A stretch of DNA of 57,365 bases from Nanobdellati archaeon (GTDB lineage: Archaea > Nanobdellota > Nanobdellia > UBA10117), in contig JAGVWI010000001.1 of the NCBI GenBank assembly GCA_018304345.1, forward strand, positions 11,191 to 68,555, in the 5' to 3' direction. The notes under the pieces are model-generated. The model saw only the letters and a program-made list of their open reading frames with translations. It was not told the DNA's origin and searched no databases. Positions 15,324-54,155 of this stretch are shown here, in pieces. The translations under genes and the position numbers were made by a program. Within the stretch, counting starts at the first letter, position 1. Every line of letters begins with the position of its first letter.

Positions 15324-16885
15324 AAATTAATATCAAACATTTGGTTTTGCTAAGTATTATTTTAGCGGCTGCTTTTGCTGTACGTTTTTACGATTTAGAA
15401 ACATCGTCTTTTGAAGGACATATTCTGAGAGATATAGAAATTGCAGAAAGTATAGCTTATGACCACGAAATAAGATTAGCGGGAGTTACTCATAAAATTG
15501 AGCAAGATTCCGGTCAGCAGTCTTTTGGACCGCTCTATTACTATATGTTAGCACTGCCACTGATGTTCACAAAAGATTCTATTAGTAATCCGATAATTAT
15601 TATTTCAATAATAGCGTTGCTTAATGTTTGCGCAGTTTTTCTTTTGTATAGATTAGGAAAAGACTTTTTTTCCGAGAAAGTTGGATTGATAGCTGCGACT
15701 CTATTAGCACTTAGTCCGTGGGATATTTTGTATTCTAGATTTATTACTACTCCAAATTTCCTGCCGTTTTTTGTTATAATACTAGCGTATTCTCTTCTGA
15801 AAATAGTTTTGAAAAAAGATTACAGATATTTTATACCATTGGCAGTAGCAGGAGCTTTGTCATTACACTTTCATTTGTCAGTTTTGTTTTTAGCACCAGT
15901 AGTCGGACTGATTTTAGTATTATCTAAACTTGAGTTGAAACCTAAGTATGTTTTAGCGTGTATAGCTATTTTTGCATTAGCACTAGCACCTATGCTTTAC
16001 TATAATATTTCTAATGATTCTTTGGGTTCGCTGAACTTTTTATCCGAGAGAATTGGCGAAGAGTTTTCACGTTCTGAAGCGGCTTTAGAATCGTTTGGAA
16101 TTCCGTTGGTTGTATCTTCAAATTATTTGGGAAAATACTGGTTCGGCAATGCGAATATATTCTCAGATTTCGGAAATTGGTTTTATCTCGCATCAAGTGT
16201 TTTGATAGCCAGCTTATTTATTTTTGGAATGATTTACTTAGCTAGAAATTTTGTAAAGAAGAAATCTTATGGCGTTTTGCTGGACTGGATTTTAATCCCA
16301 ATTTTAATAATAGTTTTGCTCGGAAAAAATGTAAGTCCGCACTTTTTTGTAATAATTATGCCCGCTATGTTTATAGTTATAGCTTTAGCATTAGAACATT
16401 TGTCAAAGAAAACAGCTTTAGCGTATTTGCTATTAGCTATAGTAATAATTTCAAATGTCTTCACGTTTTACACCGCATTTGATTTTCTGCAGGAAAATGG
16501 CGGAACGTCATCCGCTTTTGGACTTAGTTACAAAGCAAAAATGGAAGTAGTAGATTATATAACATCTATCGCGCCAGATAAAACTACACCAATATTTTTC
16601 TTGGATTACAATAAAAGAGATTTCTTATATTTGTTCAACAAGCTTGGCTACACAAATATTAGTGGAATATCTCTGGAAGAATTCGAAAAGCAAAAAGAGG
16701 GCGTGCTTATAGTAGATAGGTATAGTATGTTTGGATATGCTGAACATAAACTGACAGAAGAGCAGAATGACTTTTTAGATAAAGCAGACAAGATTACAAT
16801 AAAAAACATTGAAATTGTAAGTGCTCCCGGCGAGATTGGTCGGAATTACAAAGTAATTCCTACGCCCCAAATCTATATGAATTAA
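15320..16885 (+). CDS. Multi-pass membrane glycosyltransferase (GT39/ArnT-like, GT-C)
   Basis: This 521-residue protein has about ten hydrophobic helices, an acidic first loop (YDLETSSFEGHILRDIEIAE) with the 'D' expected in GT-C catalytic loops, and a C-terminal extracytoplasmic domain from ~residue 405. It probably transfers a sugar from a lipid-phosphate donor made by the preceding GT2. The last ~21 codons are unusual: VSAPGEI is read from an 18-base copy of the neighbouring tRNA-Glu 3' end, and GRNYKVIPTPQIYMN from the first unit of a 55-base tandem repeat that supplies the stop. The native C-terminus has probably been replaced. Confidence 0.82.
   Translation: MKINIKHLVLLSIILAAAFAVRFYDLETSSFEGHILRDIEIAESIAYDHEIRLAGVTHKIEQDSGQQSFGPLYYYMLALPLMFTKDSISNPIIIISIIALLNVCAVFLLYRLGKDFFSEKVGLIAATLLALSPWDILYSRFITTPNFLPFFVIILAYSLLKIVLKKDYRYFIPLAVAGALSLHFHLSVLFLAPVVGLILVLSKLELKPKYVLACIAIFALALAPMLYYNISNDSLGSLNFLSERIGEEFSRSEAALESFGIPLVVSSNYLGKYWFGNANIFSDFGNWFYLASSVLIASLFIFGMIYLARNFVKKKSYGVLLDWILIPILIIVLLGKNVSPHFFVIIMPAMFIVIALALEHLSKKTALAYLLLAIVIISNVFTFYTAFDFLQENGGTSSAFGLSYKAKMEVVDYITSIAPDKTTPIFFLDYNKRDFLYLFNKLGYTNISGISLEEFEKQKEGVLIVDRYSMFGYAEHKLTEEQNDFLDKADKITIKNIEIVSAPGEIGRNYKVIPTPQIYMN
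16820..16837. repeat. 18-base copy of the tRNA-Glu 3' end inside the GT39 gene
   Basis: AGTGCTCCCGGCGAGATT at 16820-16837 is identical to 17003-17020, which spans the discriminator, acceptor 3' strand and part of the T arm of tRNA-Glu(CUC) in antisense. The copies are 183 bases apart. The stretch between them (16838-17002) is exactly three times 55 bases and holds the tandem repeat. A tRNA-3'-end direct repeat is the usual footprint of integration at a tRNA gene. Confidence 0.7.
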
Positions 16886-16975
16886 CTGGGTTGGTCGGAA
16901 TTACAAAGTAATTCCTACGCCCCAAATCTATATGAATTAACTGGGTTGGTCGGAATTACAAAGTAATTCCTACGC
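16836..16975. repeat. 55-base tandem direct repeat, about 2.5 copies, with internal hairpin
   Basis: Units start at 16836, 16891 and 16946; the first two appear identical and the third diverges after 30 bases. Each begins TTGGTCGG and contains the perfect hairpin GGAATTAC-AAA-GTAATTCC (first copy 16842-16860), followed by TACGC. Read on the minus strand, the third unit joins the conserved tRNA-downstream element (GAGAGCGTAGGAATTAC). The array lies between GT39 codons and tRNA-Glu. Confidence 0.85.
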
Positions 16976-16982
16976 TCTCGCC
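16963..16982 (-). repeat. tRNA-downstream conserved element, copy C (after tRNA-Glu)
   Basis: On the minus strand, GGCGAGAGCGTAGGAATTAC begins about 23 bases past the tRNA-Glu 3' end. Extended to about 41 bases, it matches the element after tRNA-Gly at roughly 34 of 41 positions; a shorter copy follows tRNA-Lys. In all three, the GCGTAGG core starts about 30 bases from the discriminator base. Confidence 0.65.
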
Positions 16983-17004
16983 TTTCGCTTCGTAAATGAA
17001 ATAG

Positions 17005-17079
17005 TGCTCCCGGCGAGATTTGAACTCGCGTCCCAAGCTTGAGAAGCTCGTATCCTTGGCCGGGCTAGACTACGGGAGC
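17005..17079 (-). tRNA. tRNA-Glu(CUC)
   Basis: Acceptor GCTCCCG/CGGGAGC, anticodon stem CGAGC/GCTTG with loop UUCUCAA (anticodon CUC), T-arm GCGAG-TTCAAAT-CTCGC, discriminator A at 17005. No intron. An 18-base copy of its 3' end lies 183 bases downstream inside the GT39 gene. Confidence 0.93.
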
Positions 17080-34129: not shown

Positions 34130-35002
34130 ATGGGAAAAAATAAATTTTACGTAACAACACCAGTGTATTACGTTAACGATTCGCCGCACATTGGGCACGC
34201 ATATACGACTATAGCTGCAGATATTTTGAATAGATGGAGGAAAAGCCAAGGTTACAAAACTTTTTTTCTTACCGGAACTGATGAGCACGGCCAGAAAGTT
34301 CAGGATGCGGCCAAGAAAGCGGGCAAATCAATTAGAGAATTTACAGATTTGAAATCAAAAGATTTCATAGATTTGTTTAGCAAATTAAACATAAAGTATG
34401 ACAGATTCGTAAGAACTACAGACAAAGATCACGAGCAGGTTGCACAAGCAATTGTGAGAAAACTTTACAAGTCAAATGATATATATAAAGGCAAATATGA
34501 AGGTTTGTATTGTATAAGCTGCGAAGCTTACTATACTGAAAAAGATTTAGTGAACGGTAGCTGCCCAATTCATAAAAAGAAAGTTGAATTGGTTTCTGAA
34601 GATACATATTTTTTTAATTTAGCAAAATACCAAGACAAACTTTTGAAATTATACGAGAGTAATCCAGAACTAATTTTGCCTGAGACCAGAAGAAACGAAG
34701 TAATTAGCAAAGTGAAAAGCGAATTGCGCGACTTAAGTATTACTAGAACTAACTTTGACTGGGGAATTCCATTTCCTTTAGATAAAAAACACGTAATGTA
34801 TGTTTGGGCAGATGCTCTTACTAATTATTTGACTGGTGTTGGTTATTTGAAATCAAAAGCTAAACTAAAAGAATACTGGCCTGTTGCGGTGCATTTGATT
34901 GGAAAAGATATACTTTGGTTTCACACAGCAATTTGGCACTCAATTCTACTGTCAGCTGGATTAAAACCATCACGGAAACAAAATGTCAAAATCTCTTGGT
35001 AA
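34130..35002 (+). CDS. metG: Methionyl-tRNA synthetase, N-terminal catalytic part (broken frame)
   Basis: This 290-residue reading frame carries the bacterial-type MetRS N-terminal half: TTPVYYVNDSPHIGHAYTTI with the HIGH motif, FFLTGTDEHGQKVQ, a CP-domain zinc knuckle with Cys (YCISCEAYY, NGSCPIHKK) and GKDILWFHTAIWHSILLSAGLKP. It then shifts into a short tail (SRKQNVKISW) and stops where an intact enzyme would continue through a 'VHGFLTVNGEK'-type strand to KMSKS. The second part starts in another frame 20 bases before this stop. About 12-13 residues of the usual connection are missing, so this is more than a single-base shift. Confidence 0.88.
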   Translation: MGKNKFYVTTPVYYVNDSPHIGHAYTTIAADILNRWRKSQGYKTFFLTGTDEHGQKVQDAAKKAGKSIREFTDLKSKDFIDLFSKLNIKYDRFVRTTDKDHEQVAQAIVRKLYKSNDIYKGKYEGLYCISCEAYYTEKDLVNGSCPIHKKKVELVSEDTYFFNLAKYQDKLLKLYESNPELILPETRRNEVISKVKSELRDLSITRTNFDWGIPFPLDKKHVMYVWADALTNYLTGVGYLKSKAKLKEYWPVAVHLIGKDILWFHTAIWHSILLSAGLKPSRKQNVKISW

Positions 35003-36104
35003 TGTTATTGACCCAAATAAAATAATCTCACAATACGGTTCTGATGCATTTAGATATTTCCTTTTCAGAGAAGTTGCATTCGGTGAAGATGGTAATTTCT
35101 CGGAGAAAGCTTTAGCCACAAGAATTAACAATGAACTTGCAAATGAACTAGGAAATCTTCTGTCAAGAACGCTAACTTTAGTTGAGAAGTTTTCTGAAGG
35201 AAAAATTCCAAAGGGACAAAAATCAAGTCCTTTGTCAACATCATTCAAAAAAACAATCAGAGAGGCAGATGCATTTATTGATAAGTATGAATTCCATCAC
35301 GCACTTGAAACTATTTGGAAATTCATTGCTGATGCGAACAAGCATATTGATTCGCAGAAACCCTGGGACGTTGCGAAGCACGAATCAAAAGCAAGCAAGG
35401 CAAAACTTAATGATATAATATATCAGAGCTGCGAAGCTTTGAGAGCTATTTCAGTTTTAGCTGAACCATTTATGCCGAATACAAGTCTTGAAATTAGAAA
35501 TCAACTCGGGATAAGAGATGGAGAATTATCTCTCGCAAAATTCAAATGGGGACAATTAAAAGCGGGAACTCTAATAAAGAAGGGCGACATATTATTTGAA
35601 AAAATTGATTTTGAAAAAGCCGGATTTGAAGATCCATTTGAAAAACTTGATTTGAAAGTCGGACAGGTTTGGGAAGTAAAACTAATTGAAGGCGCAGATA
35701 GATTATATCAGTTGAAAGTTCACCTTGGAAAAAATGGGCACAGACAAATTGTTGCTGGTTTGAGAGAACATTATACTATTGCACAACTTAAAGGCAAGAA
35801 AGTTGTAGTCGTTGCAAATCTAAAACCCGTTAAATTAAGAGGTGTGCTAAGTCAGGGAATGCTTCTGGCTGCAGAAAGTAAAGATGCAGTCGGATTGCTG
35901 ACACTTGAAAACTCAAATCCGGGCGACGATGTGTTTATTTATGGGCTGGAAAAGAAACCTGTTGAGAATTTAGGTATTGATGATTTTGTAAAAATCACTT
36001 TGAAAGTCAAAGGCGGAAGTGTATTTTACAAGGACAAGCCATTGCAGACTGGTAAGGAAATGGTCAGGGCAGACAAGGTTAAAGATGCTAATAAGGTTAG
36101 ATAA
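34983..36104 (+). CDS. metG: Methionyl-tRNA synthetase, KMSKS and C-terminal part (separate frame)
   Basis: This 373-residue frame begins exactly at the M of MSKSLGNVIDP (the KMSKS loop) and includes the anticodon-binding helix bundle (LLSRTLTLVEKFSEGK, ETIWKFIADANKHIDSQKPW) and the C-terminal EMAP/Arc1p-like tRNA-binding domain (LDLKVGQVWEVKLIEGADRL, LKPVKLRGVLSQGM). Upstream in this frame, H-H-G-N-K precedes the Met, a remnant of the expected 'HG..GxK' strand. It overlaps the first part by 20 bases. It could be a split subunit, a pseudogene or a sequence error. Confidence 0.85.
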   Translation: MSKSLGNVIDPNKIISQYGSDAFRYFLFREVAFGEDGNFSEKALATRINNELANELGNLLSRTLTLVEKFSEGKIPKGQKSSPLSTSFKKTIREADAFIDKYEFHHALETIWKFIADANKHIDSQKPWDVAKHESKASKAKLNDIIYQSCEALRAISVLAEPFMPNTSLEIRNQLGIRDGELSLAKFKWGQLKAGTLIKKGDILFEKIDFEKAGFEDPFEKLDLKVGQVWEVKLIEGADRLYQLKVHLGKNGHRQIVAGLREHYTIAQLKGKKVVVVANLKPVKLRGVLSQGMLLAAESKDAVGLLTLENSNPGDDVFIYGLEKKPVENLGIDDFVKITLKVKGGSVFYKDKPLQTGKEMVRADKVKDANKVR

Positions 36105-36181
36105 GTTTAATGTTCGCATTAGTCAATCTCGTTGCGACAAGATAAGCCTTTTAAGACCTATTTATTTGTAGTATAATAAAT

Positions 36182-36254
36182 GCGCTAGTAGTCTAGCCTG
36201 GTAGGACAGATGCTTGCCAAGCATCAGACCCGAGTTCAAATCTCGGCTGGCGCA
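36182..36254 (+). tRNA. tRNA-Gly(GCC)
   Basis: Acceptor GCGCTAG/CTGGCGC (one G-U), anticodon loop UUGCCAA (GCC) on stem GATGC/GCATC, T-arm CCGAG-TTCAAAT-CTCGG, discriminator A at 36254. No intron. A 14-base copy of its 3' end is found at 36947-36960. Confidence 0.94.
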
Positions 36255-36278
36255 TATTATTTTCTTTACAAAGCAAGA

Positions 36279-36299
36279 GACGAGAGCGTAGGAATTGCG
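36279..36299 (+). repeat. tRNA-downstream conserved element, copy A (after tRNA-Gly)
   Basis: GACGAGAGCGTAGGAATTGC (then G) begins 25 bases after the tRNA-Gly discriminator base. It shares the GAGAGCGTAGGAATT core with copy C after tRNA-Glu and, minus two bases, with copy B after tRNA-Lys. The similarity to copy C extends about 20 bases upstream. Confidence 0.65.
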
Positions 36300-36379
36300 C
36301 AGGCGGTTTAGAGAAAATTTCAGAAATCTAGGGAGTCTACTATAGTAATGTTTTTATAACTTTCTTGAAAGCAACACAT

Positions 36380-36802
36380 ATGAAGTCGTTAGAAGAGCTA
36401 TTTCCGGTCGTTAGAGAAGGACGCTTATCAACTGATTTTGGATTTTCACAATATTCATACCTTCAACAAAATCAAAAACATACTATGCTAACAGGCAGGT
36501 TAGCTAACTTTAAGTTACCAGACGATTATATCGAAGTAGTTGTAAAGCGAGTTAAGCTAGCTGAAGGACTTGTAGAGTATATTCCGAAGGAGACGCCAAT
36601 TGCGCGGTCGACGCCGCCTTTAGGCATCGACGTCAAAAACGATAATTTAATCCGCAGGATTATTAAGGATCCTAAAACATACACCAAAAGCAAAGTCTAT
36701 ACAAAGTCTAAACTTACGGACGACGGCGATACGTCCAAACGTTGGCCCGTAACATACGTTGGCAGACGAAGAGTAGTTGTACAAACGCCCGTTATCCCTT
36801 GA
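36380..36802 (+). CDS. Hypothetical protein carried on the tRNA-Gly insert
   Basis: This 140-residue basic protein is the only gene in the insert. ATG 36380 is preferred to a TTG 15 bases upstream because a TATA-like TTTTTATAAC (36350-36359) lies 21-30 bases before it. The sequence (MKSLEELFPVVREGRLSTDF... KRWPVTYVGRRRVVVQTPVI) shows no family I recognise and has no cysteines or membrane segment. Local composition includes GC-rich motifs (GTCGACGCC, with an inverse copy at 36623-36631) unlike the flanking genes, consistent with recent arrival. Confidence 0.55.
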   Translation: MKSLEELFPVVREGRLSTDFGFSQYSYLQQNQKHTMLTGRLANFKLPDDYIEVVVKRVKLAEGLVEYIPKETPIARSTPPLGIDVKNDNLIRRIIKDPKTYTKSKVYTKSKLTDDGDTSKRWPVTYVGRRRVVVQTPVIP

Positions 36803-36992
36803 TCTTTATAGAAAGGTTTGCGCTCCAAAGAGAAATAAAATATTCTATCAAAGCTCAAACCTTTTAATCTAAAGGCGGAATATCGCCGTCGACGTAAACT
36901 ATTCTTTCCTGCCATGTGCCCTTGCCTAATTTTTGGCCTCTCTGTGCGGCTGGCGCATATCATATTTTATAACTTTTGATTTAACAAGACTT
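36803..36992. other. Right part of the insert and metF promoter
   Basis: No gene is seen in this 190-base stretch. AAAGGTTTG (~36812-36820) and CAAACCTTT (~36856-36864) are inverted repeats about 35 bases apart, and GGCG/CGCC forms a small hairpin near 36875-36885. The tRNA-Gly 3'-end copy ends at 36960. A TATA-like TTTTATAAC (~36964-36972) then lies 21-29 bases before the metF ATG at 36993. Confidence 0.5.
36947..36960. repeat. Copy of the tRNA-Gly 3' end (candidate attR)
   Basis: CGGCTGGCGCATAT duplicates 36244-36257. The bases before it (CTCTGTG) differ from the tRNA's T loop, so only the 3' end is copied, as expected for an attachment core. It sits just upstream of the metF TATA box. Confidence 0.65.
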
Positions 36993-38463: not shown

Positions 38464-38536
38464 TCTCCGATACAGGAAAATCTAGTAAATTAACTTAACA
38501 ATAACTTTTTAATCACTTTTCAATCACTTTTCTAAT

Positions 38537-38635
38537 GGGCTCGTAGCTCAGCCTGGTTAGAGCGTTCGACTCTTATTGCCAAGCAAAAAGGCAAGAGCCA
38601 TCGAAATGTCGCGAGTTCGAATCTCGTCGGGCCCA
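38537..38635 (+). tRNA. tRNA-Lys(CUU) with a 24-base intron
   Basis: Acceptor GGGCTCG/CGGGCCC (one G-U), anticodon stem TTCGA/TCGAA with loop C-U-CUU-A-[intron]-A, T-arm GCGAG-TTCGAAT-CTCGT, discriminator A. The intron (38576-38599) is at the canonical 37/38 site and folds on TTGCC/GGCAA. The conserved downstream element follows at 38659-38677. Confidence 0.94.
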
Positions 38636-38658
38636 TTATAATAATATAATTCATAAAA

Positions 38659-38677
38659 GACGAGCGTAGGAATTGCG
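38659..38677 (+). repeat. tRNA-downstream conserved element, copy B (after tRNA-Lys)
   Basis: GACGAGCGTAGGAATTGCG starts 24 bases past tRNA-Lys. It lacks two bases (GA) relative to copies A and C but keeps GCGTAGGAATTGCG at the same distance from the tRNA. Just after it AATTG-CGAAA-CAATT and CAATTA-CTAA-TAATTG can form hairpins (38671-38698 region). Confidence 0.6.
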
Positions 38678-53714: not shown

Positions 53715-54155
53715 ATGGGCAAGAAAAGTAGAGGCATGTTTGCTGGAAAGAAATTAAAGAAAAGACGAGCTAAATTTAGATGGAACAATAAATATTTCGT
53801 CAAGAGAATTCTAAAATTAAAAGAAAGAGTTGATCCGTTAGAAGGAGCTCCTCAAGCAAGAGGTATAGTACTTTCAAAGAGACAAGTAGAAGCAAAGCAG
53901 CCTAATTCAGGTATGAGAAAGTGCGTAAGGGTTCAGTTGACAAAAAACGGAAAGCAATTGACAGCTTTTGCACCAAGAGATAAAGCAATTACATTCATTA
54001 ACGAACACGATGAAGTCATCGTTCAAGGAATTGGCGGTAAGCAGGGTGGTCCTAAGGGAGATCTTGCCGGCGTAAAATGGGAAGTTATAAAGGTAAATAA
54101 GCAAGTTCTTAGATCACTTGTAAAAGGAAAAGTGGAGAAAATAGTTGGACGTTAA
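53715..54155 (+). CDS. rpsL: Ribosomal protein S12 (uS12)
   Basis: This 146-residue archaeal-type S12 contains the decoding-centre motif [20 protein letters not shown] and PRGDKA-like 'FAPRDKAI...[21 protein letters not shown]'. It is part of the transcription-translation operon, with S7 starting two bases after its stop. Confidence 0.96.

Follow-up and report, generated by a model that had tools for sequence, protein, structure and literature searches.

A 0.7 kb segment at an archaeal tRNA-Gly gene, best read as the largest of several small hairpin insertions at tRNA 3' ends

The repetitive and double hairpin elements of mitochondria (RHE/DHE) are small tandem hairpins which occur in close relatives only and are mobile without genes of their own, and the hairpin elements of Allomyces were described without target repeats (PMC2800124). 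In the GTAG REP/RAYT system, GTAG stands at one foot of a palindrome having a stem of 7-8 bp and a loop of at least 3 nt, the units form tandem clusters and movement in trans is presumed (PMC3733652). Casposons give a target duplication of 14-15 bp at the tRNA 3' end (PMC6614799). Archaeal tRNA integrase islands and satellites measure 9-23 kb, with a complete tRNA on one side and a partial copy on the other (PMC9897764).

A segment behind tRNA-Gly(GCC) was compared with these systems in a window of 57,365 nt, the whole stretch of contig JAGVWI010000001.1 that was analysed; coordinates refer to this window unless a genome or contig label is given. The palindrome with its GTAG foot, 7-8 bp stem and loop of at least 3 nt, the tandem clusters and the presumed movement in trans are like GTAG REP/RAYT elements, but the copies here are few instead of high-copy and generally extragenic, lie at six loci which are all tRNAs, and show target repeats and a target-matched arm, and a Y1 transposase was not found in the assembly. 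The duplicated tRNA 3' end, 14 bp at Gly-GCC, is shared with casposons; unlike these, the assembly holds no Cas1, terminal inverted repeats are missing, the insert is far smaller and the sister repeats measure 18-21 bp. As in integrase islands, a complete tRNA stands on one side and its 3' end is repeated at the far end, whereas the inserts span 52 to ~700 bp, have no integrase and belong to a single hairpin family spread over three types of tRNA. Each of these three assignments fails a defining test and the segment was therefore not filed under any of them. The differences from RHE/DHE are the archaeal host, the strict tRNA 3'-end targets and the presence of repeats. As in that class, repeated hairpin units were found at several sites of one genome, and presence and absence at the same site differed between relatives, both at Gly-TCC (G002) and in a second hairpin family (G001 vs G000). 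The only class to which the segment is assigned is that of hairpin insertion elements, where it represents a new variant. The features of the window are as follows.

36181-36255, + strand: intact tRNA-Gly(GCC), the target (ARAGORN; Rfam RF00005, 65.7 bits)
36244-36257, + strand: left copy of the 14-bp repeat, the tRNA 3' end plus 2 bases
36281-36285, + strand: CGAGA arm, complement of TCTCG, the 3' strand of the T-stem in its own tRNA (sequence; six-locus permutation test)
36286-36298, + strand: GCGTAGGAATTGC, left half of the hairpin family motif
36314-36370, + strand: region upstream of the open reading frame, including a TATA box at 36351-36359 (81% identity to the G010 counterpart, E 2e-7)
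36380-36802, + strand: 140-aa protein of a small family (G002, G010, G012)
36812-36864, + strand: stem-loop 3' of the reading frame, with 13-bp arms (36812-36824/36852-36864), 92% complementary
36947-36960, + strand: right copy of the 14-bp repeat
16820-17020, - strand: sister insertion at tRNA-Glu(CTC), with arm GGCGAGA and three palindromes arranged as a 55-bp tandem array
17003-17020 and 16820-16837, - strand: repeat AATCTCGCCGGGAGCACT behind tRNA-Glu(CTC)
38664-38676, + strand: GCGTAGGAATTGC following the intron-bearing tRNA-Lys(CTT) (38536-38636), whose end is not repeated

The repeat CGGCTGGCGCATAT was present exactly at 36244-36257 and 36947-36960, a spacing of 703 bp, which confirmed the report in the initial annotation of a 14-base tRNA-Gly 3'-end repeat around one gene, here judged credible; metF starts 33 bp beyond the right copy. 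For the window only, 0.12 copies were expected and two copies were obtained in 1 of 100 shuffles (<=2 mismatches). Judged from the window alone the two copies are modestly unlikely, and the repeat was therefore tested across the genome G000 (438 kb, 20 contigs, 83% complete), which was searched and in places read directly. Upstream of the tRNA, the methionyl-tRNA synthetase (34130-36104) was found in two overlapping frames (34130-35002 and 34983-36104) with the break at KMSKS, which is either a sequencing error or a frameshift.

The segment, used as a query against the genome, matched two tRNA-Glu genes and tRNA-Gly(TCC), with similarity extending as much as ~40 nt beyond the tRNA ends. What they have in common is GCGTAGGAATTRC, and the hairpin family has the form GCGTAGGAATTRC...GTAATTCYGACC. 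The motif was present at six loci, all directly behind tRNAs (Gly-GCC, Gly-TCC, Glu-CTC, Glu-TTC, Lys-CTT and Lys-TTT), at a fixed distance of 28-32 nt, and was absent at 23 other tRNAs of the genome; the sixth locus, an intron-bearing tRNA which ARAGORN did not call, was read as Lys-TTT. The conserved tRNA-downstream element noted earlier is real. A copy of the tRNA's own 3' end of at least 14 nt within 800 nt downstream was found for 4 of the 29 ARAGORN tRNAs, the fifth best being 8 nt, and these four (Gly-GCC, Gly-TCC, Glu-CTC and Glu-TTC) are all carriers of the motif. With an 18-nt probe the best four own-end repeats were 18, 16, 15 and 14, and the upstream control never exceeded 9. This genome-wide evidence for repeated tRNA ends is strong.

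At Glu-CTC, Glu-TTC and Gly-TCC the motif is the left half of the palindrome GCGTAGGAATTAC-loop-GTAATTCYGACC, present in three copies, two copies and one copy and followed by an exact repeat of the tRNA 3' end over 18, 21 and 18 bp, respectively. These inserts of 52-162 bp hold one to three hairpins and are gene-free. The duplicated ends at the two Glu genes include bases past the tRNA, which differ between both genes. The family comprises eight full units at four loci and two left halves, and GTAGGAATTAC-TTT-GTAATTCC gives seven complete units with GTAG foot and palindrome. The repeat length varies from 14 to 21 bp across loci; Lys-CTT and Lys-TTT showed no clear tRNA-end repeat, and terminal inverted repeats joining both insert ends were found at none of the inserts. 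The exact hairpin pattern gave one match in named genomes, a Colwellia stretch, and hairpin patterns gave none in viral contigs. A CRISPR-like array of a 28-nt palindromic repeat with 27-nt 'spacers' was considered for the Glu loci and rejected, the spacers being nearly identical and Cas1 missing.

In the Gly-GCC copy the arm, the left hairpin half and the repeat are present, and ~0.6 kb stands in the place of the loop and right half found in the others. The right half was not recognisable; the similarity at 36927-36938 is at chance level (12% of random windows equal it), and a gene inside the hairpin loop is therefore not claimed. A minus-strand frame at 36864-36959, ending in ...QRGQKLGKGTWQERIVYVDGDIPPLD and a stop, resembles a C-terminus but matched nothing in databases, and the minus-strand peptide KLGKGTWQERIVYVDGDIPPLD near the right end, tried as a gene remnant, gave 0 matches in Pfam, PDB and its own genome. 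The GC-rich inverted repeats of the initial annotation do occur, as the 13-bp arms listed above, but are modest.

The stretch just 5' of the palindrome was complementary to the T-stem 3' strand of its own tRNA: GGCGAGA at both Glu loci, TGGGA at Gly-TCC, CGAGA at Gly-GCC and GACGA at Lys-CTT. When tRNA ends were drawn at random from the genome, 0 of 20,000 draws equalled the summed match, and permuting the six loci among themselves reached it in 6 of 720 cases; at Lys-TTT, arm and tRNA do not match, and this locus contributed nothing to the sum. The Gly-GCC arm alone is unremarkable, as 6 of 29 tRNA ends fit equally well. Duplicated end, arm and palindrome are predicted to fold as one hairpin of T-arm-like shape. 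Folding z values were -3.3 for Gly-TCC, -3.4 for an inner Glu unit and -6.3 for a composite in which the Glu outer arms enclose a single palindrome, and the Gly-GCC and Lys-CTT versions did not fold notably better than shuffles.

The relatives were analysed for empty sites. With one mismatch allowed, the motif adjoined no tRNA in 17 order relatives. In G002, the gene downstream of tRNA-Gly(TCC) is the same as in G000 (MKVAVLFSGGKDSTYAMHRA / MRVAVLYTGGKDSTYAMHRA), and neither motif nor repeat is present; this is a syntenic empty site for the sister copy. Motif and repeat were also missing at Gly-GCC, Glu-TTC and Glu-CTC of G002 and at the Gly-GCC-type tRNAs of G016, G015 and G009. For the Gly-GCC copy itself no empty site was found: metF, the synteny anchor, had no detectable match in the order relatives, and G001, the sole genome of the same genus (52% complete), had no detectable tRNA-Gly. 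Conservation of the same segment in relatives with no empty sites, the outcome that would speak against an insertion, was not seen.

A second hairpin family of the same layout and another core, ACCAGC...GCGCTG, was found in G001, both behind tRNA-Trp, where the tRNA end is repeated, and at gene starts, where ATGG and the preceding bases are repeated. The syntenic genes of G000 are without this hairpin; the comparison is cleanest for G001 contig 22 near 2828 vs G000 C7 near 2172, followed by G001 contig 14 near 11520 vs G000 C5 near 3092, and further pairs align less cleanly. Among 378 genomes of the class, the exact-ended pattern occurred in this genus only. At the gene starts (G001 L103:2195-2284, L111:133-166, L116:11520-11553 and L124:14939-14972; G000 C5:24500-24533, L128) the second family was observed to read as an open frame of 16-17 codons, e.g. 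MAALKSTDLAGHHWRRK followed by a stop, which adjoins the ATG of the next gene; a GGAGA-like ribosome site lies close to the end of the frame, and the start-codon region is repeated.

Some further repeats and tRNA irregularities were recorded. Several tRNAs have apparent T-loop introns of ~35-45 nt between TTCRAA and the remaining T-arm (G000 C7:20166-20258, C15:9560-9641, C18:16415-16500 and tRNA-Lys on C5 near 53900-54070; G010 L146), and three of these tRNAs are nearly identical and not called by ARAGORN. Other sequences also form small tandem hairpin repeats, some of them just 5' of tRNA genes, at G000 C5:6324-6445, C6:25996-26066, C4:15553-15636, C5:32576-32802, C17:20223-20378 and C4:2713-2801. 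A hairpin-like motif GCTAATC...GAGGTTTGCAAAATG stands directly 5' of start codons at G000 C3:9698, C6:30311-30381, C15:29571, C16:2961 and C1:64367, with ATGAAT on both sides in two cases. The contig ends C5:54030-54889 and C17:5-864 of G000, beside tRNA-Lys, share 94% identity over 860 bp, which is either strain variation or assembly duplication.

The Gly-GCC segment is probably an enlarged member of a family of tiny-hairpin insertions at tRNA-Gly, -Glu and -Lys 3' ends, and is best read as the largest among several, with a ~0.6 kb enlargement that holds the 140-aa gene. The anatomy, tRNA specificity, duplication, arm match to the own tRNA and absence from relatives are observed directly. A typical copy carries 14-21 bp of duplicated tRNA end at both sides and, between these repeats, an AT-rich linker of ~20 nt, the T-stem-complementary arm and the GTAG-headed palindrome. 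Since the tRNA end is doubled, the insertion is harmless and leaves the tRNA intact, and the arm is able to pair with the duplicated T-stem strand into a T-arm-like hairpin. The repeats may be target-site duplications from a staggered cut at the tRNA end, the copies would be non-autonomous, the hairpin being inserted in trans by some enzyme, and the arm could have arisen, or be preserved, through template switching within the hairpin or through selection for the fold. The ~0.6 kb of promoter, gene and stem-loop that at Gly-GCC separates the left hairpin half from the right repeat would be cargo or a later insertion. More tentatively, the hairpins of this class may be archaeal mini mobile elements, cassette-like and without a known transposase, which bear a target-complementary arm and duplicate their target at harmless sites (tRNA 3' ends, start codons), some copies acquiring genes.

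The integration at tRNA-Gly proposed in the initial annotation is partly supported. A 3'-end insertion with duplication is backed by the genome-wide pattern, the relatives lacking the element and the sister empty site. Its definition as a minimal satellite or relic by the gene is less well supported, because the common denominator is the hairpin family, which is gene-free at the five other tRNAs.

The open reading frame of 140 aa (ATG 36380, stop 36802) belongs to a real gene family, with members in G010 (pairwise E 1e-13), G002 (35% identity) and G012, and the 57 bp upstream share 81% identity with the region upstream of the G010 homologue. The promoter described earlier was recovered as a TATA-like box ahead of the ATG. 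Domain searches of the protein gave no known domain, its AlphaFold model (pLDDT 33) was of no use, and no relatives were found in viral contigs or phages. The homologues in G002, G010 and G012 adjoin neither detected tRNAs nor the hairpin. The gene may be cargo, or an independent or later insert within the hairpin insertion. It is a real possibility that the reading frame with its own promoter entered an older tRNA-Gly hairpin insertion independently and that the homologues mark an unrelated mobile or variable gene. The location of these homologues is in accordance with this, as is the G010 copy, hairpin-free despite its conserved upstream DNA; however, the repeated tRNA ends enclose the gene, and two independent hits on such a tiny target are less parsimonious. 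This alternative concerns the cargo only and is compatible with the hairpin insertion preferred here.

In G000, neither Cas1 (PF01867) nor a RAYT or other Y1 transposase (PF01797) was matched; at 83% completeness, the absence of these enzymes is therefore not final. The single tyrosine recombinase (PF00589) lies on another contig, C14, in agreement with the earlier remark that the segment has no integrase, and by sequence reading and single copy it looks like XerA. A relic or satellite of a tyrosine-integrase element, in which an attP with the tRNA-Gly 3' end recombined and most of the element, integrase included, was lost or never there, leaving 0.7 kb, is rather unlikely. The far-end partial copy of the tRNA, which archaeal integrase islands also show (PMC9897764), and the one tyrosine recombinase of the genome favour it, but this recombinase is XerA-like and away from the segment, and the same hairpin occurs at tRNAs of three kinds (Glu, Gly and Lys), the repeats being locus-specific and three inserts just 52-162 bp. 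The locus-specific duplications, which run past the tRNA end, fit target-site duplication by one family at several tRNAs better than a single tRNA-Gly attP.

Least probable is a functional tRNA trailer, an RNA structure selected for example for 3' processing or regulation and spread by duplication and gene conversion instead of transposition. The constant distance behind the tRNA, the T-arm-like fold and the arm fitting its own tRNA would suit it, whereas the same tRNAs of family and order relatives lack the structure, the copy number varies from one to three with 23 other tRNAs bare, and the genus's second hairpin family stands also at gene starts.

Archaeal hairpin insertions with a strict, self-repairing choice of target join the small set of REP-like elements, and they raise the question of which enzyme puts hairpins of 50-160 bp at tRNA ends while duplicating the end. 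Repeated tRNA ends are routinely taken as footprints of integrase islands; here they surround inserts down to 52 bp, which calls for caution with integrase-island assignments in small archaeal genomes.
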